Origin: Cristatella mucedo
Taxonomy: Eukaryota; Bryozoa; Phylactolaemata; Cristatellidae
Length of the DNA stretch: 64,000 nt
NCBI GenBank assembly: GCA_009760855.2
Contig: WPIO01000030.1
Location: 124,001-188,000, forward strand
Direction of reading: 5' to 3'
Made by a program: the position numbers and the translations under genes. Every line of letters starts with the position of its first letter. Position 1 is the first letter of the stretch. This document shows, in pieces, positions 1-63,746 of the stretch. The notes beneath the pieces were generated by a model that saw only the letters and a program-made list of their open reading frames with translations, was not told the origin of the DNA and searched no databases.

Positions 1-1750
1 CCTGAGGGGGAGAACAGGCTGAAACTGATGCAGCAGTTCAGCTAGGTACGAAGGAGCCAAGCCAGGCCTTGTGTGTCAGCGTAAGAACTTTGCTCTGTAT
101 TCTTTGCTCAACCGGCAACCATCCTAGCTCCTTCAGCAAACGAGACACGTGTTCAAACCGCTGGGGCTTGAAGACCAGCCTTGCAGCCATATTCATTGTC
201 CGCTGTAGTGGCATAATAGCTTTCTTTGGCAGCCCAGCCAAAAGGGAATTACAATAATCAAGCCGAGACAGAACTAGAGAGCTAGTTAAATTTTTTACAA
301 GCCACTGTGGGAGACAGCTCCTAATCTTGGACAGGGATTGGATGTGATGGCCAGCTGTAGAGGCAGTCTTCTGAATGAAGCTTTTGAAATTGAGGCAGCT
401 ATCGAACACGACACCTAAATTTCGAGCACGTGGTGATGACCGCACAATAGCATCACCTATTAGAATGGCAAAACCTTTTAATCCACCCACACGCTTAGGG
501 TATCCTATGAGAAGCAGTTCGGTTTTATCATCATTTAATTTCAGGAAGTTTTCCGACACCCAGGATCGAATATCGGCAAGGCAAGCATTCAGTTACTCGG
601 TTGCCGCAGCAGATTCCGACGGTTTGAATGACAAATGCAGCTGAGTATCGTCAGCATAGAAGTGATATCCTATTCCATGTGCCTTAATCACTTTTCCGAG
701 AGGTTTTGTATAAATGGAGAACAGCAAGGGACCAAGTACAGACCTTTGAGAGACTCCACAGGTGACCCTTCTCGTGTCTGAGACCTGACCTTAACACGAC
801 ACGGATTGAACACGATCAGACAAGTATGATTTAAACCACGCCATTGCTTCGTCTGCCAGACCGATCGTTGTTCTCAATCATTCAAGCAGAACTTCGTGAT
901 CAATGGTGTCGAAGGCAGCAGACTGATCTAGTAGAGCTAGGGCAGTGACATTCCCGTCGTCGTTGCCACGTAGAATGTCATTGTTAACACGGAGGAGAGC
1001 AGTTTCAGTAGAGTACTGCCTCTTGAACCCCGATCGTAATGTTTCTGACATTCCATTTTTTTCAATTTGTTCAACCAGCTGCTTAGCAACAATTTTTTCA
1101 AGAATCTTTGATAAGAACGGAAGAAGGGAAACTGGACGATAGTTTGCTAGGACCCCTGTGTCTAATCCAGGCTTTTTAAGAATAGGTCTAACGTTTGCCG
1201 ATTTGAAGGACTTGGGGACGACCCCTCTTTCCAAAGAAGCATTAAAAATCTTGGTTATGGCAGGGCTAAGTTGGTCTGCTAGTGAAGACCACAGAGATGA
1301 AGGTATGGGGTCTTCAGGAGAGGAGCTCTTTTTGCTAGACCTTATTAAGGCAGCCACATCGCTTGCAGAAACGTCGGAGAACCTTTTAAGGAAGGTCACA
1401 GGTTGAGGAATGGCGATTGCTTTGGTCGGAGGGGGCTTAATGGAGGCACGAATGTGCGCAATTTTTTCAGCAAAGAAGGCTGAAAACTTTTCGGCTGAGC
1501 CCTTAATATCTGGGGAGTCAGACCTCACAGCATCGGCCAGTAAATGGTTTACTGTCTTATAAATCTGTTTAGTGTCCGACCAGCAGGAATTCAGCTTTCT
1601 AATGAAAAAAGAAGCCCTGGTTTTTTTAAGCTTTCGGGTGTAAACTCGAAAGAAGTCTTTAAAATTGACTAGATCTGCCTCAGACCCCGTTTTTTTGGGC
1701 CTCAGTGTCCCGCGATGTAGCTGTTGAGCCCTCCCTTCTGATGGCAATCT
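1..1750 (-). mobile_element. CR1/L2-like LINE reverse transcriptase, decayed and cut by the window edge
   Basis: The minus strand reads through a linker and RT domain. ANYRPVSLLPFLSKILEK lies near 1090-1170, STETALLRVNNDIL near 970-1020, LLDQSAAFDTIDHEVLLE near 880-945, SVLGPLLFSIYT near 710-740, YADDTQ at about 641-658, NFLKLNDDKTELLL near 520-550, and a C-terminal DYCNSLLAGLPKKAI near 225-260. In-frame stops sit at 878-880 (TGA), 791-793 (TAA) and 593-595 (TAA), and the frame shifts near 45-70, so it is dead. The 3' end lies left of the window. Insertion is antisense to MCRS1, in the intron before exon a. The CR1/L2 assignment rests on motif style only. Confidence 0.9.
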
Positions 1751-1913
1751 TGCAGTTTGTTCTTAGTGGAGTAACATCTTTGTTGTTTTTACATTTGCGA
1801 TATTTTTATACTAGATTGTGTGCCAGCTGCTGTGGGCACTCAAAATATATGTGCGCTGTCCTGACATGTTTTGCAACTCGGATTTGATATCATGCCGTGG
1901 AAACGTTTTCCAG

Positions 1914-15826
<13,913 letters not shown>

Positions 15827-30539: not shown

Positions 30540-33415
30540 GCACTTTGAAGGCGTCGGCTACAGAGAGACCAGCGAAATTCGTAACCGCTCAGCGGGGCCT
30601 CGACCGAGGAGGAACTAGGTCGGAGCGCTCGCCGATTGGGTCGATCGTCACGTGACCGAAGCAGCCGCCCAGGCCTTGCGTCGCTCCGCCGGTGCGCCCG
30701 ACATTCGCAGCCTGCCCTCGAGGCCGTTGCGTTCGGCCGTTGCGTTCGGCCGTCGATTCGGCTCGTCCATTCGACGGCGCATTTACGTTGGCTTCATCGG
30801 CCCAAGTGGGCGCCTGCCTCACCCTAAGTGAGGCCCACAGCTGACTATTGATTTGCGTGCGGCTTATCTGTAGCGGTCACCGGAGCTGCTGCCGCCTCCG
30901 CCGCCGTTGGCTCACGCCGTTGGCTTCGGGCGCCTTAACAGGCCGCCCAGGATAGTCCGCACGCCTACGACTAGGATGCACGGACGACGAGCGTAACGCT
31001 GCTGACGAATCTCGCTGCCTCCAGGCTGCCTTCCGGCACACAGTAAGGCGTCGGCTTGCCACTCGCGTCGGCGGCGGCTCGTTCGCGCAGCGCCGGCGGC
31101 TGCTGAGCGGTGCGCCGGTATTTAAACGCGAAAGGAAAATTGTTTCGCGGCGGCGGCGGCGGCGGCTCGTCCGAGGCAGCAGCGCCGCCGGAGCTCGCGC
31201 GAGCGCGGCGGTCTCGGACGAGCCGCTTGCTCCCGCTGACGGGCAGCCGAAGTTTGCTGAACCCGGCGAAGTTTTGAGCGGCTGCGAGCGAGCGCCTCGC
31301 GGTTCGCACCACGTCGTGGTGGAAGCCCTAATCCTAAGCGTAGCGGCGCCGGCCGCGGGGTTGTGTGCGGCGGCGGCGTCGGCGTCGGCGAGCGAGCGGG
31401 ATGCTCGAGATTCCGCAGCGCTGCGATCGAACGTTTAGCGACCGCTCGTCGGACGGCGGCGGTCGCTAAGTGATGTCGCTCAGCGAGCCAGGCAGCGCCG
31501 AGCCGCTAGTTTTTTGCCGAGTACTACGCGGGCAGGGCGAGCCACGTGGAGGCCAGGGGAGGCGTCGACGCTTCCGTTGCCTCTCGCTCGGACGGTGCAC
31601 GCTTCGAACTCGCGGTGACGGGGCACTGCGAGCGGCACATCTGGCAGCTTTTCAGTTGGCTTGCCCGACGGCTAGAAGTGACGGAGCCCGCCGACAAAGG
31701 TCGACGCCGGCAGGCGCGAGGCCGCACCGGACCGCCGTACGTGGCGCGATGCGTCTCGAGCACGAAACGCGCTCTTCTCTGGGGCGGGCGTCGACGATGG
31801 GAGTAGAGCGGCCCCCAGTGGCTCTCCCTTAATGGGGCGCCGGCGGCAGCGCGAGCACCTCATTACGCTGCCGCCAGCAGCCGCTCGCCCAGAGCGCCGA
31901 ATCGTCTCAGCCGCCCCGCCGTCTTGCGGACGCCGCACTCGCGGGATAGCAGCTGCTCGCGCTCAGCTCGACAGGAGTCGCGCAGTTAGCGAACCCGGAC
32001 GGATAGGGCGAGCTAGACGGCGTCCGGCTGACATTTAGACGGCGACTTCGCCCCGCGAGCGAGCGAGAGCGATCGACCGGCGGACGCCGCCGCCACTGTG
32101 GCGAAGGCGGTTGCGAGGCCGACCGAATTTGCAGCGGCTGCGGCGTCAGCCGCGCCGCAGCGCGATGGCAGAGTTCGGCGCTGGTGACGTGGGCAGCGAT
32201 GGATGCAGCGCCGGACTGGTGGGCCGGACTGGTCCTCTGGGGAGCCGGTCGACTGCGCCCCGGAAGGCGGCGGCAGGTCGAATAGGAGCCCGCTTACTCC
32301 CGCTGTACTTTCGGCCCGGCCGGCGGGCGCCGTGCACAGTCGGAAACCGAAAGCCGTGCCGCGAGACCCGCGTCGCACGCGTGGCCGGCGCGCTCGCGAC
32401 AGCGTGACAAAGTCGGCGAAGCAGCGAGTGCCTCTGCAATCCGGCTTCTTTGTGGTCGCGGTAGCTGGCGATCGTCGGCCGGACGTCCTCGCGGCTTGGC
32501 AATGAACTGCCATTGAGAGCGTCTTCGTCGGCGCTGGATCGCTATCCGACGTGGCGCCGCAGACGCGCATCGCGATTTGCCCGGGGCGACGCTACGATGA
32601 TCCAGAGCCGACGTCCTGCGAACTTTCGCAGACTAAAACGTACACTTGCGATCGCCTGCTCGACTGGCATGGCACACTGGTCTCCTTTCTACTTCCGCCC
32701 TTCTCCCTCTCTCTTTTTTTCTTCTCTAACAATGGCACCGCACACGATGACATTGCAATCTTTAACAATTGCATCGCACTCCATTCTTCCTCCTTCCCTT
32801 TATGCCCTTCTTTTATTTCTCTCTCACGTTCCGTATTCTCAACAGCTCTCTCTTGCTCTAGCGCCAGGCGAGCGCTCGCGGGCACTCGTGTCGCCGCGGC
32901 GGCGCATCGCTAGTCACTCGGCCGCCGTGGCGTCGGCGCGGAGCCGACGCCACGGCGGACCCCTCCAACGGCTGGCGCTCCCGAGGACGGCGCCGGGCGC
33001 AGCTCCCCACCTCTGCCCGCCGCTCGCAGAGCCACTTGGCGCGAGACGCGTCGCTACGGTGATTAGCAGCGGAAGGAAACCCACGGTAGCGCGTCTTTGA
33101 AACCGGCTCCGAATCGATCCGGTATTTAGGGCTCCGCTAAAACGTTTCCGCTACGCGCAGCGCCAGCCGACCGTTCGACTGCCGGCGGCGGCGACGACAG
33201 GAAAGTCGTTCTTGCACCGGTTCGAGCACAGAGGTCGCTCTCTCTATCTCTCTCTCACTCTCTCTTCCTTTCTCGGCGGCAGGTACATGCAGCCGTCAGC
33301 CTCAAGCGGCGCACTCGCGCAGCGCCGTCGCGCCGCTTCGCCACTCCTCTCGTTATTTGCTCACGCGCCGCACGTCCGCGTTTGCTCGCTCTTGCCGCAA
33401 GGTGAGGAGGGAGCC
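30540..33415 (+). promoter_or_regulatory. Large CpG island upstream of the GPCR; probable promoter and 5' UTR region
   Basis: About 2.9 kb of very CG-rich DNA leads directly into the GPCR coding region, with (CGG)n patches near 31146-31170 and 31365-31390. A tatttaaa box lies near 31119. Just before the coding region, 33238-33281 is a strong pyrimidine tract ending in cggcggcag, a good splice acceptor, which implies that a 5' UTR exon lies further upstream in the island. Open frames here run in all registers and I assign none. Confidence 0.6.
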
Positions 33416-34993
33416 ATGTCGACAGTCGCTGCCACCGAGCCCGAGACGGGCATGCCGACGACCGAGCCGCTACTGCTGCTGCCGCCGCTGCCGGGAACGC
33501 CGAACGCGTCGTCGTTCGGCGCGTTCGACGACTCGCAGGTGTGCGAGACGGCGCTGCGCGCGTGGCTGCTCATGTACGAGCAGCAGCGCGAGAGGATCAC
33601 GCGCGAGACGACCTTCTGGGTGTTCACCGCCCTGTACGGGCCGGCCGGGCTCGTCGGCGTGCTCGGCAACGCGCTCACCGTCTACATTTTCGCCACCAAG
33701 ATGAAGAGCACTCCGACGAGCGCGTTCGTCATTGCGCTCGCCGTCGTCGACCTGTGCGTGTGCCTGACGGTCATCCCCTCGCGCTTCGCCTCCATACTGC
33801 TGCTCAACTTCGGCTTCGACGCCCTGTGCAAGGGCAGCGAGTTCGTCTTCTTCGCGGCGCTGCCCACGTCCGGCCTGCTGCTCGTCGCCATCGCCGTCGA
33901 CCGGTTCGTGCTCATCTGCCTCGCCCGCTCCGACCTGATCACGCCGCGCGCGGTTCGCGTCGCGCTCGCGCTGACCGCGCTCGCCGGCGCCGCCATTGGC
34001 CTGCCGTCGCTGTTCACCGTGTCCGTGTACCACGACACGCCCAACGCGTACGAGAACGTCACGCGGCCGTGCCTGCTCGGCCTGTGCAAGCCAACACAGA
34101 AGTACATCGGCCAGGCCGACGCCTGGATCTACTGGATCGTCATAGCGGCTCTCTACTTCGCCATGGTGCTCGTGCTAACCTCCATGTACCTGATGATCTT
34201 CCTGCGCGTGCTCAAGACGCGAAAGAAAGTGGGCAAGTGGGCGCACGGCAGCGGCGGTAGCGGCGGGCGGCCGTCGAGCGTCGACCTGAGGCCGGCAGCC
34301 GGCGGCTGTGCCGCCGCCGCCGGGACGCACAATGGTGCCAAACTGCGGCCGCCGCAAGCTCGGGCGGCGGCGGCCGCCTCGAACGAGCCGCCGCCGCCAC
34401 CGCCGCCCGATGGCGGCTCCAACCCAGCGGCATCGCTGCTCAGCGTGCCGTGTTGTGCGGCGGCAGCGGCGACGCTGCGGGGCAGCAGCGGTGGCGACGG
34501 CGGCGCCGTTGGCCTGGCTCGATCGGCTGCGGCTGCGTACAATTCGTCGTCGCTGAGCAACGCTCCGTCGGCCGCGGGCGAGCAGGACGGAGCAGCCGAG
34601 ACGACGGCCGCGCTCGTTAACGGCCCGTCGAGGCGCGCTCGCAAGAAGCGTCTGCCGCACGTCAACACCGCGGTCACGCTGTGCCTCGTGACGGGCACGT
34701 TCGTCGTTGCCTACCTTCCCGTCTTTGCGATCACGCTGTCTGGCGCTTGCTCGGCGTCCAGCGTCGGCTGCGAGGCGCACGAAGTGTACGGCGTGCTGTG
34801 GCACTTCTTCTTGTTCAACCACGTCGTGAACCCAATCATCTACGCCTTCATGAACCCGCGCTTCAAGGAAGCCCTGTGCGCCATGCTGCCTCACCGTGGC
34901 CGTCGCCGCAGCCGCCCCGTGTTCTTCACCAACGGACAGGCCAGCGACACGAAACGCTCGTCCATTGACTTGCACAGCGCCACCGCACAGTAG
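33416..34993 (+). CDS. Class A (rhodopsin-like) G-protein-coupled receptor, orphan
   Basis: A single uninterrupted frame gives about 525 residues. The N-terminus has an N-glycosylation site (N30-A-S). TM1 holds the GN motif (N85), TM2 has LAVVD (D112), and C138 before TM3 can pair with a Cys in loop 2 (C219 or C224); loop 2 also has N214-V-T. TM3 ends in DRF (162-164) in place of DRY. TM5 is at about 237-266. The third intracellular loop (about 270-412) is Ala/Gly/Ser/Pro low complexity. TM6 has AYLP (432-435) in place of CWxP. TM7 has NPIIY (472-476). A basic tail and C488, a possible palmitoyl site, follow. It resembles peptide-type receptors, but I cannot name the ligand. The ATG at 33416 has a good context (gagccATG); an in-frame ATG at 33287, just after a likely acceptor, could add 43 residues. 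Codon third positions are strongly G/C. Confidence 0.93.
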   Translation: MSTVAATEPETGMPTTEPLLLLPPLPGTPNASSFGAFDDSQVCETALRAWLLMYEQQRERITRETTFWVFTALYGPAGLVGVLGNALTVYIFATKMKSTPTSAFVIALAVVDLCVCLTVIPSRFASILLLNFGFDALCKGSEFVFFAALPTSGLLLVAIAVDRFVLICLARSDLITPRAVRVALALTALAGAAIGLPSLFTVSVYHDTPNAYENVTRPCLLGLCKPTQKYIGQADAWIYWIVIAALYFAMVLVLTSMYLMIFLRVLKTRKKVGKWAHGSGGSGGRPSSVDLRPAAGGCAAAAGTHNGAKLRPPQARAAAAASNEPPPPPPPDGGSNPAASLLSVPCCAAAAATLRGSSGGDGGAVGLARSAAAAYNSSSLSNAPSAAGEQDGAAETTAALVNGPSRRARKKRLPHVNTAVTLCLVTGTFVVAYLPVFAITLSGACSASSVGCEAHEVYGVLWHFFLFNHVVNPIIYAFMNPRFKEALCAMLPHRGRRRSRPVFFTNGQASDTKRSSIDLHSATAQ

Positions 34994-38334: not shown

Positions 38335-38860
38335 CTTCGTGCCACATCACACCACTTCTCTCCAACTTGCACTGGTTCCCAGTCAAGCAATGCATCGACT
38401 TCAAGGCTCTGTCACTTACTTCTAGGTCCTTTTATTCTCTGGCTCTAGCCTAGCTATCAGAAATACTCCCCTACTAGGCGAAGAATCGTTCAACCCACTA
38501 CTCTGACTCGAATCATTTAGCCATACCTCATACGAACCAAAAAACCGTTGGACACAATTTCTTTAGTTCGTATGCTTCTAAAGCCTGGAACTCATAACCG
38601 ACGCACGTCACAGCGTCCCCTGACATGACGAATGTAAAAAAGCTTAAAACGAACCCTTTTATTACAGTATTTGGTAGGTCTTTTTTATTTATCCTTCGTG
38701 TGCATGTACCTGCTTACGCTGTGCCTGCTGCTTGCAGATGTTACCACCAAACATTTGATAATGGCTTATATGCAGCATCTGTAAAGTGCCTAGAGAGAGA
38801 TTCAGTTCTATGAGGGCGCTATACAAATGTATTATTATTAGTATTATTATTGATATTATT
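38335..38860 (+). mobile_element. LINE 3' end (RT C-terminus, 3' UTR and ATT tail)
   Basis: The plus strand reads LHWFPVKQCIDFKALSLTSR, then SYASKAWNS, the C-terminal part of the LINE ORF. This is followed by a 3' UTR and the terminal motif tgagggcgctatacaaatg with an (ATT)n tail at about 38828-38858. The frame is broken by stops. The tail is typical of CR1/L2-type LINEs. Confidence 0.8.
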
Positions 38861-38879
38861 CGTGGGCCACCCAGCCTAG

Positions 38880-39790
38880 CAGCTAGTTTCTGGTGAACCA
38901 ATGATGGTGTTGACAAGCAAAGCACCAATGCTTGCTTACAAAGAGGCAATAGGCTGCGCAACTGGCGAGCCTAGAATACAGTGGACGGCTCAGCAAGTCC
39001 ACCCCAATGAGAAAGTTCCCCATGGTGCAAAGGACTGCACTCAGGGATTTACCCTCACTGAATATTTTTTTCATAGATGCCTTTGCTGCCTGAATAAATC
39101 GATCCATCAGCCTGTTGTTCCGAGGATATTGTGAAAAGGTCAACTAGAAAAATTCCTGGTACGAATTTTTCTGGACTGAATTTACAATAGAGGTCATAGG
39201 TGGGGTGGCACGATGTCCTTGTCGATGTCAGTAACGTATCCAGACCAGTAAAACAAAGTTTAGGCAAGCGCATGATGGCTTTGGCAATGCCAAATTGATT
39301 ATCACTGATGAGCTGCAATGCCTATCTGGCCACTTTGTCGCAAGGAGTGAATACAATGCTTACAGTGTTGTATCGGCTGTTGTTCTTGGCGTGTATCGCA
39401 TCTCGGTAGGGTCAGGTTAAGAATAGCTGAATCTGCTCCTCTTCTAGCCACACATGGCCTGTGTACAGAGATTTAGGTGTAGCCTGCTGAGTGCATCTGC
39501 TACGAGAAACTCATTCCCAGGCTTATGGATTAAGGTGACGTGTTAGGGAAGGCAACGAAGTCTTATCCGCTGCAATCGTGGTCAGACCTCAGCGATAGGC
39601 GTTTTGAAGATGCCAATTAGTGGTTTACGGTCGCTTTCCACTAGGAGACTGCGTCCAAAGACACGGGAGAACACGTCCAAGGCTAAATTTGAGAGCCACT
39701 GTCTCTTCTCCTCTTAGATTATATCACCGTTAAACTGAAGTTAATGCTCGAGCAGCATAATCGACAGGTCGGTGGTTTGCAGCAATACTA
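38880..39790 (-). mobile_element. Ty3/gypsy-like pol relic (RNase H to integrase), broken
   Basis: Read on the minus strand from 39790 down: NHRPVDYAARALTS and FGRSLLVESDRKPLIGIFKTP (RNase H), RLQRIRLRCLP and HKPGNEFLVADALSRL (the end of RNase H), then an integrase zinc-finger-like HLxSDNQFGIAKAI segment near 39270-39310, then the integrase C-terminal part (YPRNNRLMDRFIQAAK near 39070-39130). The integrase catalytic core between these last two is missing, and stops and frameshifts occur throughout. I see no LTRs. It is a dead LTR-retrotransposon fragment. Confidence 0.78.
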
Positions 39791-39842
39791 GGCTTTAGGG
39801 TTTACAGTTTAGGGTTTACGGTTTATGGTTTACGGTTAACGC
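39789..39842 (+). repeat. Short run of telomere-like 7-bp repeats
   Basis: Six to seven degenerate heptamers follow one another (TTTAGGG, TTTACAG, TTTAGGG, TTTACGG, TTTATGG, TTTACGG), in an otherwise non-repetitive stretch. Confidence 0.75.
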
Positions 39843-40024
39843 GATTGATCTGATTGATCTATCACTAGCTCATTGAGCAAAAAATCAAAATACAATTTCT
39901 GTGATTAGACTACTCAAATAGACTGTGCAGTGCAAGGATAACCAGTGAATATGTCATATGGAATTAACAAAACATCCAAGTATGCTGGTTTGATTTTATT
40001 TCCATAGAGTGTGAACTTCATTTG

Positions 40025-40145
<121 letters not shown>

Positions 40146-40167
40146 GTAGTCATACATTCATCAACAT

Positions 40168-40245
40168 AGGGGGAAATGTCCTACTCCGGGGTGAAATGTC
40201 CGTGGAGAAATGTCCTAGGGACCACCAGGGGGGGAAATATCCTAC
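40168..40245 (+). repeat. Four-copy short tandem repeat (GAAATGTCC motif)
   Basis: GAAATGTCC occurs at 40173, 40193 and 40207, and GAAATATCC at 40234, each after a G-rich run. The repeat lies at the 3' side of the adjoining minus-strand LINE. Confidence 0.8.
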
Positions 40246-41475
40246 GTTCTGTAATACACAGGTGCATTTTATGCTTCATTTTAAATTTCATCCTGTCAGG
40301 GGATGTCGTGACGTCAGTCGGGAGTGAGTTCCAGGCTTTAAGAGCATACGAACTAAAGGCACGGTCTCCAAAGGATTTGAGGTTCGTACTAAGTATACTA
40401 GGTAGGTAAACTGTTTGATTCCTAAAAGCGCGTGATACTATGTTTAGCCTGGTAGGGGAGTAGATCTGAGGGTTAGGCTGGAGCAAAAAAATGAAGGGAC
40501 CTAAAAGTGAGTGATACAATCTTGAAGTTGATGCGTTGCTTGACTGGGAGCCAGTGCAGGTCGGCGAGAAGTGGTTTGCATCCACTGTAAGCGCCTGATG
40601 GCAACAGCCAGTAGACCAGCGAGCAGTGAGTTACTTAAGTCGAAGCGTGATGTTACTATTGCATCTAATTAGATGCAGTATCCCTGTCTAAACAAGCCAG
40701 AATTTTAGCAATATTATGCAACTGAAAGAAGGTACACTTGACTGTGGAGCTGATGTGTTTGAAAGGTCCCCTTGAAGCAGGGCATATAGATCGCTTGCAG
40801 ATGCAACAGGAAATGTGCTGGCGGGGCCAATTTTGAGCGATAATATTTCCAATGTTGAGTCACACTTGGTTTTTCCGTAACTAGCAAGTTGGTTTTGTCG
40901 TCGTTTGATGTGAAAAGTTTGGCTGCCATCCACGTTCGGATGTGAGCAATAAAGGAAGCAAGATTGTGCAGAGAATTCGATGGGCTCTAGGCCTGGGAGG
41001 AATCAAAGCAAAGGTACAACCGAGTTTCATCTGCATGCATAGATGTAAAAGCCTGGATTGTACCTTGGCAATCACATCGGCAAGAAGGAGAGTATAAACT
41101 GTGAAAAGAACGGGACCAAGCACAGATCCTTGAGGTACCCCATATTTCAGAGGTTTCTCGGATGATCTTTGTCCATTCACATGAATATTCTGTAGTCTCT
41201 CACTAAAATAGGACCTGAATTATTGCAATATAGTCATAGTGATGCCCAGGCGAGTTGAGAGGTGCTCAAGGACTTGGTGATCGATTGTATCATAAGCGGC
41301 CGAAAGATCGAGAAGAACAAGCAGAGAGACTCTACCTAGTCTGCATTCCTAAGTAGGTCGTTCTTAAGTAGAAGCAATGCTGAGTGATTATCTCTGTTGA
41401 GTGATTATCTCTAAATACAGACTGGAATAAACTTGCTAGGTCTCAATGCTGGTCTGACGGTCTGCCACAACTCAT
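40175..41475 (-). mobile_element. LINE RT relic, second long copy
   Basis: The minus strand shows LLVLLDLSAAYDTIDHQVLEHLS near 41250-41320, [20 protein letters not shown] near 41080-41150, [14 protein letters not shown] near 40870-40925, and a C-terminal [18 protein letters not shown] near 40320-40390 preceded by a HSLLGPFIFLLQPNPQ stretch. The YADD box region is altered (near 41030) and the frame is broken. It is the same family type as the LINE at the window start. Confidence 0.88.
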
Positions 41476-52194: not shown

Positions 52195-52375
52195 CTCTAG
52201 TGCACCGGTTCTCAACCTGTTGATCGCGAACCCTTTGGGGGTCGACCGCCTTTTTCACAGGGGTCGCCTAAGACCATTTTGCACTCAATAATTTTATGTT
52301 TTGGGTTCGCCACAACATAAGGAACTGTATAAAAGGGTCGCGGCATTAGGAAGGTTGAGAACCACTGCTCCAGTG
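52195..52375. mobile_element. SPIN-like hAT MITE with 8-bp target duplication
   Basis: The element is 52203-52367 (165 bp). It starts caccggttctcaacctgttg and ends ggaaggttgagaaccactg, which are inverted repeats. The inner left part contains ccctttgggggtcg and cacaggggtcgcctaagacc; the inner right part contains ggaactgtat and gggtcgcggcattagg. Recalled from memory, these are the terminal sequences of the SPIN (Space Invaders) hAT family. Flanks are CTCTAGTG (52195-52202) and CTCCAGTG (52368-52375), an 8-bp duplication with one change, as hAT insertion makes. There is no coding capacity. Confidence 0.88.
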
Positions 52376-58800: not shown

Positions 58801-61800
58801 ACTACGTTTACATAGGTCGGTCTTGCTTTGATCTCCCTTCATGAAGAAGAAATTACACGTTCAGTTGGCCTTCCATCTTGCTTCCTTCAAGCTACTTAAT
58901 AGCTCCACCCTTACAGCAGTCAAGAGAGATTACTTTGGTTAAGGGAGGTAGGAAATGGCTCTTCGCGATGCACCTCCCGGTGAATATAAACCTTTCTGCG
59001 TTTGTTTGTATCGCCTGCTGCCTCATGATCTGATACCTACATGAAGAGCTCTTAGTATCCCATAAGCAGCAACTCGCGTGGAAAGCATGGATGATTTTGC
59101 CAATCACGTAGTCCTCAATGCATTTCAGAGCGATGAAGAAGGCGTGCCCTTGATGGCATTAAAAGGTGGTCTTTGTGACGAATGCACTAAAGACCGCGGG
59201 GACCAAAGCAAGATCGACCGTGCAAATGCAGCTTTAGCGGTTCTCACCCCGTCTGCCCACTTGCAGTGGGCAATAGAGGATTGCCTGCTGAAGGTTTCGA
59301 ATCAATGACCGGGGTTGTGAAGTACAAGCACCTTACCTCTAGGTAAGATACAAGGGCATATATCCTGCGTTCAGTCTTATAACAGCTTTATTAACCTCTG
59401 CTGTCAAGCGCTGACTTGTTCAAGGTCCTTTAAGTGCAGCCTGCTATTTTGCATCATCATCAGCATTACTAGTAAAGAGTTTGTACTGCAAGAGCCGTGC
59501 TTCGAATATGCACGGATCTCACGAGATGGGCCTGGAGAGTTAACTAATTTAATGTGACTCACATGATCACACTAGCCTCTCTGAAATTCAACAATGACTG
59601 CCTTTGGACAAAGCTGAGATCTTGCTGATGACAAAATAGAGGGCCAACAATTCAGTCACAACTAAGTGTAACATACTGTAACAGCAGTTTAATAAAAAGG
59701 TAGCACATAATTGGTCAATAAATAGCATAACAATCTTGTCCCGACTTCTGCATCCTTTATCGATGCTTAGGGAGATGCTCAGATATTAACAATAACAATA
59801 CTGTCAGCCTCCGACTTACGACGATTCAACTTACGAAAATTCGAAGATACGAACTCGGCCACGGAAAAACTCAAAAATCAAAATTTGTCTGAGAAAACGT
59901 TCAAAATTTGCGCCCGGTCAGCAGACCGGACATCTAAATAAAAAGTAGGGAGGAAATGATAACTGACTGCATCAGAACATATCACATACCATTCTCGACC
60001 GACGAGAAATTTTTCCCGCAATCCTAATCTATTTCGTAAGTCGTCGTCCAACTGTACTCAATAGTGTAGCGCTCAATGAGAACTAAATCTCTTTGTCGGC
60101 ACTTTACATATACTGGAGGAGAAAGAGGACTTAAGCATATGCTGGCCACGACCGTCGTGCAACTCACAAAGCAAACAATTTCAAGAGATAGACTGAATTT
60201 GTATTGTAGATGGAGCCAATGCTTTTAGGTAGGCTTTAGTCGGTTAAATCACCCTTCGACACAGTCTTGGCACTTCTTCCACATAGGAAAAGTGTCTGCA
60301 TGCATGCAAAAGTGCATAGCACGGGAAGACATATAGGCAGGCAGGAAAGTTTTCACGAGCATGTTGGGACATCGACTTCCCTGCTGCCGACTGTAGCATG
60401 TCCTTCCCAACCACCCTGAACATATATTCTACTTACTTCCTTGACTGCCCTCCTCACTTAGCTATGCTCTCACTTTCTTTTTGTTGCATAAGATGAATTC
60501 TGTTGGCTACCATATTCGCACTGAAAGCTGCTTAGACTCTGAGCACGCTATAGAAAACACTCCTGCTCAACACTAGCATAGTCTTTGTAGTTTTGTGGAG
60601 TCACAGAAAAACAGACAACACATTAAATTTCATTATAGGTAGACAAGAGCATTAAGTGATAGGCAGATCCATCACAGGGTGCTCGGTGGGTTAGCATGCA
60701 TGGCAAGCTACCGACCGATAGTTGGCAGACTCACCGACACGGCATACAGCCGGTACTTCGTGTTCCAGCCTCCGCTGGCAATGTCAGATGCAGTGAGTGC
60801 GAAAGGTGGATGCTTAGTCTTTGAGACTCTACTTCCTCTGTACCCACTGGGACCCTGCTTTGTGCCAAAGCTCGTAGGGCCACTGCCCTCACCGAGGTCG
60901 CATTCACCAATGTCACCTTGCTGTTGCTGGGAGGTCGACTCCTCACTGTGTATTCCTGACGATGGTATATAACCATTAAGCTGGCCATTTCCATTGACAA
61001 ATGATGGCCGTGGCATGTAGTGCCCAGGATCAAAATCGTCGAACGGAAATGTTACCATTTTGTGGGACTTGATCCAGCGGCCATTGTGCAGCTGGAATCG
61101 TTTCAGATGGACAATCTGTAAATCAAGTCCAATTGAAAAAGCAATCAGGTGGCCAAGTTTGATGACCAGATGTAGATGCTGAATGCCTGCTAGCTAGGCC
61201 AATAGTAACTGCTCAAGAACTAAAAGGGGGCAAACTACATACAAGTGCACTGTCATCTCAACAAGTGGCTGTAGCCGGTACAGCCATCTTGGTTGTGAGG
61301 TGCAGTTTGAGAAAGATGTACGTTCGAAAGCCATGGCAAAATTATCAGCAGTATTTCTCTCTTACTTTGCTATGTCATCAAATAATGCAGTTGGTCAAGA
61401 GGCAGTAACATCAATACAGAGGAAAAATGAGTGAACTAGCAGCATCAAGACTCAGCCCTCATGAGCAAGCAATAAATGCTTTGCAGCTAAATTTCGGATG
61501 GCTCACAGTGACAGCACAATCAGTATACCACGTAGCATAGCTCAGGAAAATTTTGATGCAAACAGATAATAATCAACATTTTTTCTGAATCAGGACAACA
61601 GTGGTCAACAAGAAAGGCGACAACCATGTCTTAACTCTCACCACTTACTTAGTACACTACAACCTTCGGATGGGATGGGGAGGAAGGTCTTCACTACCGT
61701 CTATCCTACGACAAGCTCTACAATCATCACAGTCAAACCCAATTAATTTTTATGTAGGCATCACGAAAATGCAGAAACTAGCGCTCAGCTCCCAGCTCGA

Positions 61801-63746
61801 CGACGACGTCTGTTTACTATACCGGTCTAAACTCTATATTTGCGATGCCAAATAAGAGCCACTTGCACCTCCACACCAGCTGCGTGCATGGCGACGATTT
61901 ATCTGACATTCTTAGAACATCGAGCCTTCGAACGAAATGCAGTCAGGTTATTTAGCTGAAGGAAGTATTCTCTGCTCATCCGAAAAAATGCCCAGCCAAG
62001 GTCTTGCAAGCAAATCGTCCTATGTGTAGCATTACTGCGCAGGATCCGAGGCTTCGAGAGTGCCAAGGAATGCTCCCTAGAGTCAAGAGCAGTCGTGCAA
62101 GCAGTCGCACCAAGCAGAGACCCTCAATGTCAGATGGAGCCAACGCTCACCCAAAAGCAGAAGCACAAGACAAACAGGACTTACCAGGATTGGTGGCAGC
62201 CGCCAGATTTGAAGGCGCTTCGAGGCGAGCCGGTGCTGCTTGCACTTGGAACAGTAGTAGAGCTCTTCAGCACCTAGCTGCTCCTCCTGCGTGAAAGCTT
62301 GCAGGCAAGCATCCAGGCTGATTGGTTGAGCATGGGCAGCCTGAGCTTCGGCTACGCTCGGGTCCACCTTCACTTCCTGCGAGGAAAAAACGGAAACGTG
62401 AAGGTCAAGAATGTCACTTGGGACAGGATGGCACGATTTTACCAATCTGACCGAACTGAACATCGGTGGTAGCAGACCGATTCCATCGCCAGCGACTCAG
62501 GCCAACAGGCAGAAAACCACGGTAGAGCGAAGCCAAGCACTGATTTGTCTAGCCACACTGAAAACTCGAATGGTCTCTCACACGCTGTGGCCAACTGCAT
62601 ATGAATGCCAAGCAGTGGCAGGGCCAGCTCCATCCGCCAGTAGACACTGCCAATGTAGCCAGAAGCTGCTCGTGTTTACATAATGGTACCAGTAGTTTGA
62701 AGGGGTTGCAAGTGTGGTAGGCTACTTATCCAGCTACATTTTTCCACTTCTAATATCAAAAGTTGCAATCAGGCAAAGCAGCGTGTGCATCTATGAAACC
62801 CTAAACTGCTCACGAATGCTTCAATTTGGGCCAGCGATGATGCCAGCACCAGCCATGCTCGGCATCGACAGAGGGAAGGACTGTCGTACGGCTGGCCGAT
62901 CACCATCGTGACATGCAATGGCTAGTTTCTCGAGCACAGGCTCATCTCAATCCAGCGCTACACGAAACAGCCTAATGTCACATGAGTGGCTCTCTAGGTA
63001 CCTGAGTGTCGAAGTCCCGAATGCTGGAAACTCAGTTAATTAGTGGTGGCAACTAGCTTTGCTTTTTAAGACAATGACATGCTGCGATACACAGGGCGAC
63101 CTAACTAGGCGTCCGTTCATCACCGACCGACAGTAGAGCATGATCAAGCTGCTGGTGACAGACACAGGAGGAGACCAGGCCAAGACGTGTCTGCTAACAG
63201 CAGCAAGCCCTGACACTCATCGGGAGTGAAATGTGACCCATGAATGCAGTGGAGAAGTGCTGAGGCTCAATTCAGACACGCGACTGTACTCTGCACCTTG
63301 TGCTAAAGGTAGTTTAGTGGCACTGGTCACAACTGCACCCATGCAAGCAGCTGCAGCCAACCGACAAACCCTAAGAGACCATGCGATGAGGCAGAACTGC
63401 AGGTGAACGAGCAGGCGGCACAGAGTGATGCACCACAAACAGAGCCGCCACCAAAGTCAGCCGCCTATAGCACATTTCGGCCACGCGTAATAGTCCCCCG
63501 GAGATCCATGAAGCGTCAAGGCTGCCCACGTGGGCTGATCGATGCTTGTTGTTAGCGAGGCGCCCAGAGACTTATCAAAGCGGTCGATCTGGCGAAAGCT
63601 CTCTGCCACCGCCTCTTACCACTTCCGACGTGTGCTGGTAACGCAAATGAAGGGCCGTCGGCTCCCAGTCGATGGCCACGTAACCGCCAAGAGCACGACA
63701 GTCAAAAAGGTCGTCATTGCACTCGATACGGCATCCTCGACAGAAC
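55702..63746 (-). CDS. USP32: USP32-type ubiquitin-specific protease, last five coding exons (5' part outside window)
   Basis: Coding segments in transcript order are 63746-63620, 62376-62185, 61115-60735, 56839-56747 and 55884-55702 (stop TGA 55704-55702). They join in one frame and, from memory, match the C-terminal part of USP32. USP32 is a deubiquitinase that cleaves ubiquitin from proteins and acts at Golgi/endosomal membranes. The first exon carries FCRGC and the second YYCSKC, the two CxxC halves of the USP zinc ribbon. The third carries HLKRFQLHNGRWIKS plus a Gly/Ser/Gln-rich insertion. The fourth carries the catalytic-His box LGGGHYVAYAKNP. The fifth has SAYILFYER and ends in CSVQ, a CaaX-like prenylation motif as in USP32. 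Introns are 1,243, 1,069, 3,895 and 862 bp, all GT/AG. The Cys box, EF-hands and DUSP domain lie to the right of the window. Confidence 0.95.
56140..56480 (-). mobile_element. LINE relic in the last USP32 intron
   Basis: The minus strand reads LPSYLAELLEHV, then SDNKLLAPFFSLKA, the post-RT segment seen near 1-70 of this window. It lies in the 862-bp intron between USP32 exons 4 and 5, in the gene's own orientation. Confidence 0.7.
56747..56839 (-). CDS. USP32: USP32 exon 4 of 5 in window (catalytic His)
   Basis: The exon is 93 bp (31 codons), phase 0: CHRGQLGGGHYVAYAKNP, then NDKWYEFNDSMVK. The His in GGHY and the Asn/Asp in FND are the catalytic His box residues of USPs. The acceptor is gtgtcctacag and the donor AAG|gtcagt. 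Confidence 0.95.
58860..58985 (+). repeat. Dispersed repeat shared with 2380-2530
   Basis: It shares the cttgctt, tagctccaccctta, gattacttt, gcacctcccggtgaat order with 2380-2530, in the same orientation. It lies in USP32 intron 3. Confidence 0.6.
59270..59345 (-). mobile_element. tRNA-like SINE head relic
   Basis: On the minus strand it reads aggtaaggtgcttgtac (A-box side), then ggtcattgattcgaaacc (B box), about 60 bp apart. No body is recognised. Confidence 0.45.
59801..60054. mobile_element. TA-flanked MITE family M, complete copy
   Basis: The left end reads ctgtcagcctccgacttacga and the right end, on the minus strand, cagttggacgacgacttacga. Both are flanked by TA. At 254 bp it has no ORF, which fits a non-autonomous Tc1/mariner- or pogo-type element. 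It lies in USP32 intron 3, and its left half is repeated at 21106-21300. Confidence 0.72.
60735..61115 (-). CDS. USP32: USP32 exon 3 of 5 in window (HLKRF box and variable linker)
   Basis: The exon is 381 bp (127 codons), phase 0. It opens IVHLKRFQLHNGRWIKSHK, the strand leading into the USP palm, then a low-complexity linker (poly-Q of four, Gly/Ser-rich) and ends KYRLYAVS. The linker is much shorter than the one in vertebrate USP32. The acceptor is gatttacag and the donor TCG|gtgagt. Confidence 0.95.
62185..62376 (-). CDS. USP32: USP32 exon 2 of 5 in window (second CxxC)
   Basis: The exon is 192 bp (64 codons), phase 0. It encodes ISLDACLQAFTQEEQLGAEE, then YYCSKCKQHRLASKRLQIWR and LPPIL. 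The acceptor is ttttttcctcgcag and the donor CTG|gtaagt. Confidence 0.95.
62377..63619. other. USP32 intron between the first two exons in the window
   Basis: No coding match to USP32 or other genes is seen; minus-strand frames at 62439-62633 and 63217-63438 have no domain. Confidence 0.55.
63620..63746 (-). CDS. USP32: USP32 exon 1 of 5 in window (first CxxC and AIDWEPTALHLRYQ)
   Basis: The exon is 127 bp: one base that completes an Arg codon, then 42 codons. It encodes FCRGCRIECNDD and then GYVAIDWEPTALHLRYQ, closely matching the FCRGCKIDC and AVDWDPTALHLRYQ stretches of known USP32. The acceptor is gttgtggacag and the donor GTG|gtaagagg. Confidence 0.92.

Follow-up and report, generated by a model that had tools for sequence, protein, structure and literature searches.

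Transfer of DNA transposons between phyla has a textbook example in SPIN, whose vectors and bridges are unsettled. Its full-length form measures about 2.9 kb. An extract of PMC3499496 places SPIN in the Buster family of hAT transposons and gives nnnTAnnn as the Buster-group duplication motif, as does an extract of PMC3517528. In the extracted text of PMC5857283, murine rodents are said to carry SPIN and the mammalian SPIN invasions are dated to 15-46 My. SPIN is also named in Rhodnius (extract of PMC11614815), and a SPIN-like hAT of about 1,000 copies, with no intact transposases detected in that assembly, is described from the snail Biomphalaria glabrata (extract of PMC5440852). The extracts of PMC5331948, PMC3513734, PMC5791352 and PMC3621081 mention SPIN in their reference lists only.

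We analysed a 64-kb stretch of DNA (the window) from a 572-Mb assembly (572,011,866 bases in 688 contigs), in which it occupies C233:124001-188000, and found a SPIN-type hAT MITE with imperfect terminal inverted repeats (TIRs). The element and its relatives resemble SPIN of tetrapods and Rhodnius prolixus in their hAT/Buster-type TIRs and TA-centred 8-bp duplications, in having a full-length form of ~3 kb accompanied by short internal-deletion derivatives, and in ends near-identical to a provisional mouse-type sequence. Unlike those hosts, the present one is no tetrapod, and its mitochondrial gene order sets it apart from insects. The 185-bp derivative differs as well, being joined at an internal junction of its own; SPIN is used here as a provisional name. 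With the SPIN-like hAT of Biomphalaria, likened by description only, the family shares an invertebrate host (a lophotrochozoan in the snail, probably one here) and about 1,000 copies, and no intact transposase was detected in either, here among three full-length copies. Drosophila Mar MITEs (extract of PMC3517528) are likewise of the Buster group, arose by internal deletion of a full-length element and have nnnTAnnn duplications, whereas the Mar terminal sequence reads CAG(G/A)GGTAGGC.

The element occupies positions 52203-52367 (165 bp), with the minus strand as its family orientation. A 22-nt inverted pair (52197-52218 and 52352-52373, 82% complementary) includes both termini. The flanking 8-mers, CTCTAGTG (52195-52202) and CTCCAGTG (52368-52375), are mismatched at one of eight positions and pair as the left and right copies of a target-site duplication, the left copy having TA at positions 4-5 like the rest of the family. 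Thus, the 165-bp element with paired inverted ends and an 8-bp duplication with one mismatch, as reported in the preliminary description, was confirmed. Comparison of the inverted pair with the family assigned the left TIR, CAGTGGTTCTCAACCT, to 52352-52367 on the minus strand, and the right TIR, which reads CACCGGTTCTCAACCT on the plus strand and has two differences from the left, to 52203-52218. An 81-bp left-end block (52287-52367, minus strand) is common to the 321-bp subfamily and full-length copies described below. The 75-bp right-end block (52203-52277, minus strand) holds the stretch matched at 18 of 20 positions by the mouse primer Ate1 R2. Alignment with the family consensus identified GAGTGCAAA (52278-52286, minus strand) as an internal filler remnant, 20 bp of the consensus being absent here. 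The copy had been called well preserved, which holds relatively; however, it agrees with the 185-bp consensus at 151 of 165 aligned positions (8.5% divergence), lacks the 20 internal bp and ranks 22nd of 34 copies from closest to farthest.

Within the window, the exact TIR core GGTTCTCAACC was present at the two element ends only. With up to one mismatch there were three window matches against 0.80 expected, and three of 100 shuffles reached three; it is the copy number in the genome that argues against a chance origin of the window element. Single-strand folding of the element beat shuffled sequences (z -4.34; 0 of 200 shuffles), but strong folding is expected of any paired-end MITE and was therefore not counted as evidence. 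Neither Rfam, at its gathering scores, nor a tRNA scan matched anything in the window.

Other features of the window were recorded alongside. A class A GPCR of 593 aa lies in a single frame at 33212-34993 on the plus strand (7tm_1, E 2.4e-32), its nearest solved relatives being the cholecystokinin and adrenergic receptors. Minus-strand frames at 60711-62496 resemble what we take to be USP32 exons, with a UCH match below the cut-off at 60711-61193 (E 0.0065) and no Pfam match at 62086-62496. An FHA exon at 4349-4591 on the plus strand (FHA, E 9.8e-7) is presumably MCRS1-like. Decayed LINE fragments, L2/CR1-like by eye, were seen at 38-1762 (minus strand) and 38348-41219; reverse transcriptase was matched in them at 878-1747 (E 1.1e-9) and, below the cut-off, at 40884-41219 (E 0.0012).

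A genome search with 181 bases returned the window itself and at least 40 further matches, partial ones among them, with identities of 75-93%; the count is a minimum, since the best 40 of 2,047 first-look candidates were scored. The 40 further matches fetched represent 39 loci (one locus had two matches, of which one was used), making 40 loci on 33 contigs with the window copy. A TIR pair 100-260 bp apart was found in 34 of the 40; the six loci lacking a recognisable pair were excluded from the duplication and consensus counts. Genome-wide, the left-end pattern was present with up to two mismatches at 1,466 sites (740 + 726), compared with none for the reversed control pattern.

The flanks of 29 of the 34 two-ended copies matched with at most two mismatches, nine of them being identical, while the other five failed. 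In 24 of 34 copies the flanks differ at one position at most; 2,000 shuffled pairings averaged 1.0 such copies and never exceeded 5. The duplication is, as a class, real. Among the 29, TA stands at positions 4-5 of at least one flank in 27 and of both flanks in 22. The family thus shows two features of hAT elements, namely 8-bp duplications (29 of 34 at that threshold) and short TIRs beginning CA(G) (34 of 40 loci).

From the 34 two-ended copies a 185-bp consensus was derived, to which the copies stand at a mean K2P distance of 0.084 (range 0.033-0.149), an approximate figure because the sample was picked by similarity to the window copy. The ratio of pairwise to consensus distance is 1.80 and star-like, which fits one burst. 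On the assumption that neutral sites change at 1-3.5e-9 per site and year, a K2P of 0.084 corresponds to roughly 24-84 million years.

A longer class was located using 225 letters of a provisional mouse SPIN-type sequence as the query (two of them put to the local CpG form), with the best 40 of 2,294 candidates scored. Of 20 loci fetched, 16 possessed the TIR pair, with lengths of 212-498 bp, and yielded a 321-bp consensus at K2P distances of 0.073-0.279; duplications with at most two mismatches flank 15 of these 16 copies. Near the right end of this consensus, at about 215-257, lies an internal palindrome, CCTAAGACCATCGGAAA...TTTTCCGATGGTCTTAGG, of which the 185-bp consensus has the right arm only.

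A genome search with an internal part of a still longer copy found 23 matches, its own place being one of them, and at three of these the 5' and 3' parts lie ~2.3-2.9 kb apart. Three full-length copies (L125-L127) possess both TIRs: one of 3,288 bp with flanks GCTTAATC/GCTTAAAC (one of eight positions mismatched), one of 3,110 bp with the identical duplication ATTTAGAT/ATTTAGAT and one of 2,956 bp (L127) with no recognisable duplication. The 321-bp form consists of the first ~209 and last ~111 bp of these copies, and the 185-bp form of the first ~81 and last ~91 bp, joined at its own internal junction; the two are deletion derivatives of an element with the same ends. Pairwise K2P among the full-length copies is 0.164-0.174, about twice the MITE value, so that the full-length copies appear to be of much the same age as the MITEs. 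Together these distances make the family mid-aged. The invasion had been called fairly recent, a view that stands solely relative to the more decayed LINE pieces, two of which (L2-like by eye, in the window) share 74% identity.

The likeness to the mouse repeat was assessed with the provisional mouse SPIN-type sequence and with printed sequences. Six strings that we took to belong to the mouse element were set down before the consensus was derived: the 185-bp consensus contains five of them unchanged and the sixth with a single mismatch. To each string the window copy, the sole copy then seen, has 1-3 mismatches, indicating that the strings were not copied from it. The whole provisional mouse sequence agrees with the 185-bp consensus at 79 of 81 and 81 of 81 positions of the two ends. 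It agrees with the 321-bp consensus at 219 of 222 aligned positions, ~99 bp and the ~3-kb interior lying outside the comparison and the choice of copies with that sequence as query favouring agreement with it. The window copy itself matches the provisional letters at 147 of 165 positions (89%), compared with the 70% that the preliminary description had taken as its lower limit.

Two nested mouse Ate1 reverse primers, printed in the extract of PMC2767504, match the consensus on the same strand and in the same order, one at 18 of 19 positions at the outermost end (its first base lying outside the element) and the other at 18 of 20 about 55-75 bp inside, against shuffled maxima of 14 and 15. The matches of two rows from a mouse Pqbp1 table (extract of PMC3713010) were marginal (23 against a shuffled maximum of 22, and 22 against 20). 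The family consensus thus appears near-identical to a mouse repeat; the name SPIN is provisional, in the preliminary description as here. We take the printed repeat to be the one so named. The identification as a SPIN-like hAT MITE is therefore supported by the Buster-group target site and by near-identity to the mouse repeat, the family name being provisional.

The horizontal transfer proposed in the preliminary description is probable on the same grounds, since vertical descent would not be expected to leave the non-coding ends of a mouse and an invertebrate element ~99% identical; the likeness to mouse is the one line of evidence used here. We infer the horizontal entry from this likeness, and its direction and date are likewise inferences. 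Patterns of the element or of mammal-type SPIN had no match in collections of viral contigs and genome contigs, as expected there, and searches of phage, plasmid and E. coli sequences gave nothing beyond one 32-base plasmid match at chance level (E 0.5).

It is improbable that the element belongs instead to another vertically inherited hAT family (Buster/Charlie) with short termini that are merely SPIN-like. Ends of the CAGNGGTTCTCAA type are common to many hAT families, and hAT-type matches abound in this genome, with at least 138 to Dimer_Tnp_hAT (best 150 of 766 scored) and at least 145 to zf-C2H2_12 (best 150 of 327). However, the match to the provisional mouse letters reaches beyond the termini, taking in both ends and whatever of the 321-bp form could be aligned; the printed oligo lying inside the end also matches the consensus. 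DNA that looks unconstrained would not stay so similar between invertebrate and mouse by descent.

The minus-strand frames of all three full-length copies are broken, the longest printed stop-free stretch being 192 aa; by eye they resemble what we take to be a ZBED5-type hAT transposase. Pfam found no hAT family in 10 distinct stop-free pieces of these copies, where unrelated sub-threshold matches only were returned, and a PDB search with one piece gave no match. BLASTP of one piece against a zf-C2H2_12-matching remnant of the same genome produced a weak alignment (E 8e-4 as a single comparison; 26% of 46); three pieces compared with ten hAT loci by tblastn produced no alignment at 1e-3 (best 0.016). 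Three shorter copies of 612, 642 and 919 bp are too short to hold a transposase gene. No SPIN-type end was present within four mismatches near an old hAT remnant (L086) or at four zf-C2H2_12 loci (L110-L113). In longer stretches read around two of these loci and a further one (L114-L116), the only matches had five mismatches and were chance-like; the zf-C2H2_12 loci inspected for such ends were five of the 145 matches, and some bases of L111 and L115 were withheld. Thus, the intact hAT transposase source sought in the preliminary description was not found, each full-length copy examined being broken. A ~3-kb element would have encoded the transposase that moved all forms, and the genome probably holds no working copy elsewhere.

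Besides these remnants, a different and apparently young hAT family was observed (L057-L085; for example C62:104187-104423 and C67:727153-727389), with 63 Dimer_Tnp_hAT matches at E <= 1.1e-16 among those listed, 55 of the same score. Matches to hAT-domain and zf-C2H2_12 models at C44:3588049 and C343:2202098 lie inside open frames 1,947 and 1,941 aa long; the score at C44:3588049 equals that of the young family, so it may be a young copy joined to another frame.

The young family was considered as the MITE source. Were the MITEs recent and still mobile under its control, its 55 equal-score matches among those listed and its several open frames of 635-642 aa would supply the activity. None of the 30 loci fetched, however, has a SPIN-type end (up to two mismatches) within about 1.5 kb on each side, the 3' end of the young element in L061 is by eye a different terminus, and the MITE copies have diverged from their consensus over the range given above. 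With these 30 loci read, the young family was rejected as the source, and we regard recent mobility of this kind as very unlikely.

The nature of the host was examined through a 21-kb contig (C688) that is mitochondrial (COX1, E 2.1e-132). At conserved COX1 positions ATA reads as Met, AGA/AGG as Ser, AAA as Lys and TGA as Trp, which sets the code apart from those of vertebrates, echinoderms, flatworms and tunicates. With the remaining genes named by eye, and a tRNA scan that lists 40 including false ones, the contig was found to contain the blocks nad1-nad6-cob-S2-(T opposite)-nad4L-nad4-H-nad5-F and cox3-K-A-N, other genes being rearranged. These blocks match what we take to be the chiton-type lophotrochozoan ground plan. 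Together with the code, this gene order suggests that the host is a lophotrochozoan. The contig (L054/L055) is unusual in having a repeated region with several tRNA-like copies on both strands, and frames identified by eye as ND2 and COX2 lie on the strand opposite to the other named genes.

That vertebrate DNA contaminates the assembly, or that the window is chimeric, merits hardly any credence despite the similarity of the element to a mouse repeat, for the 40 loci lie on 33 contigs with their own duplications, 241 of 330 consensus CpG cells across copies are still CG though transitions at CpG sites are doubled (9.8% against 4.9% at other C/G sites), CpG observed/expected is 0.96 in the window (~50% GC, with 45-46% in samples of other loci) and 0.77 in a flank sample, and the mitochondrial contig uses an invertebrate code.

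We conclude that the window element is very probably a dead, non-autonomous MITE of a SPIN-type hAT of the Buster group, left by an old horizontal invasion of an autonomous SPIN followed by internal deletion. An autonomous SPIN of ~3 kb would have entered the germ line of an invertebrate ancestor, probably a lophotrochozoan, by horizontal transfer. Its transposase would then have mobilised, by cut and paste, full-length copies as well as two or more internally deleted derivatives, the 185-bp form retaining about 81 + 91 bp and the 321-bp form about 209 + 111 bp, with insertions producing 8-bp duplications at YTAR-type sites. Movement would subsequently have ceased, with copies decaying to about 8% from the consensus. 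The remainder of the proposed mechanism is standard cut-and-paste hAT biology and MITE formation by internal deletion.

More tentatively, SPIN may have reached a lophotrochozoan phylum or class from which it is not so far known, where a complete autonomous element left full-length corpses and two home-made MITE families over a time span roughly that of the tetrapod invasions. What SPIN is and how it works are unchanged by the present find. A further invertebrate host with more than 1,000 ends and several full-length corpses offers new material that can be dated and whose consensus can be positioned relative to the tetrapod, bug and snail SPINs. If the wider reading is true, setting these copies beside tetrapod and snail SPIN could supply a date and a root for the cross-phylum wave, and could show whether aquatic invertebrates were the bridge.
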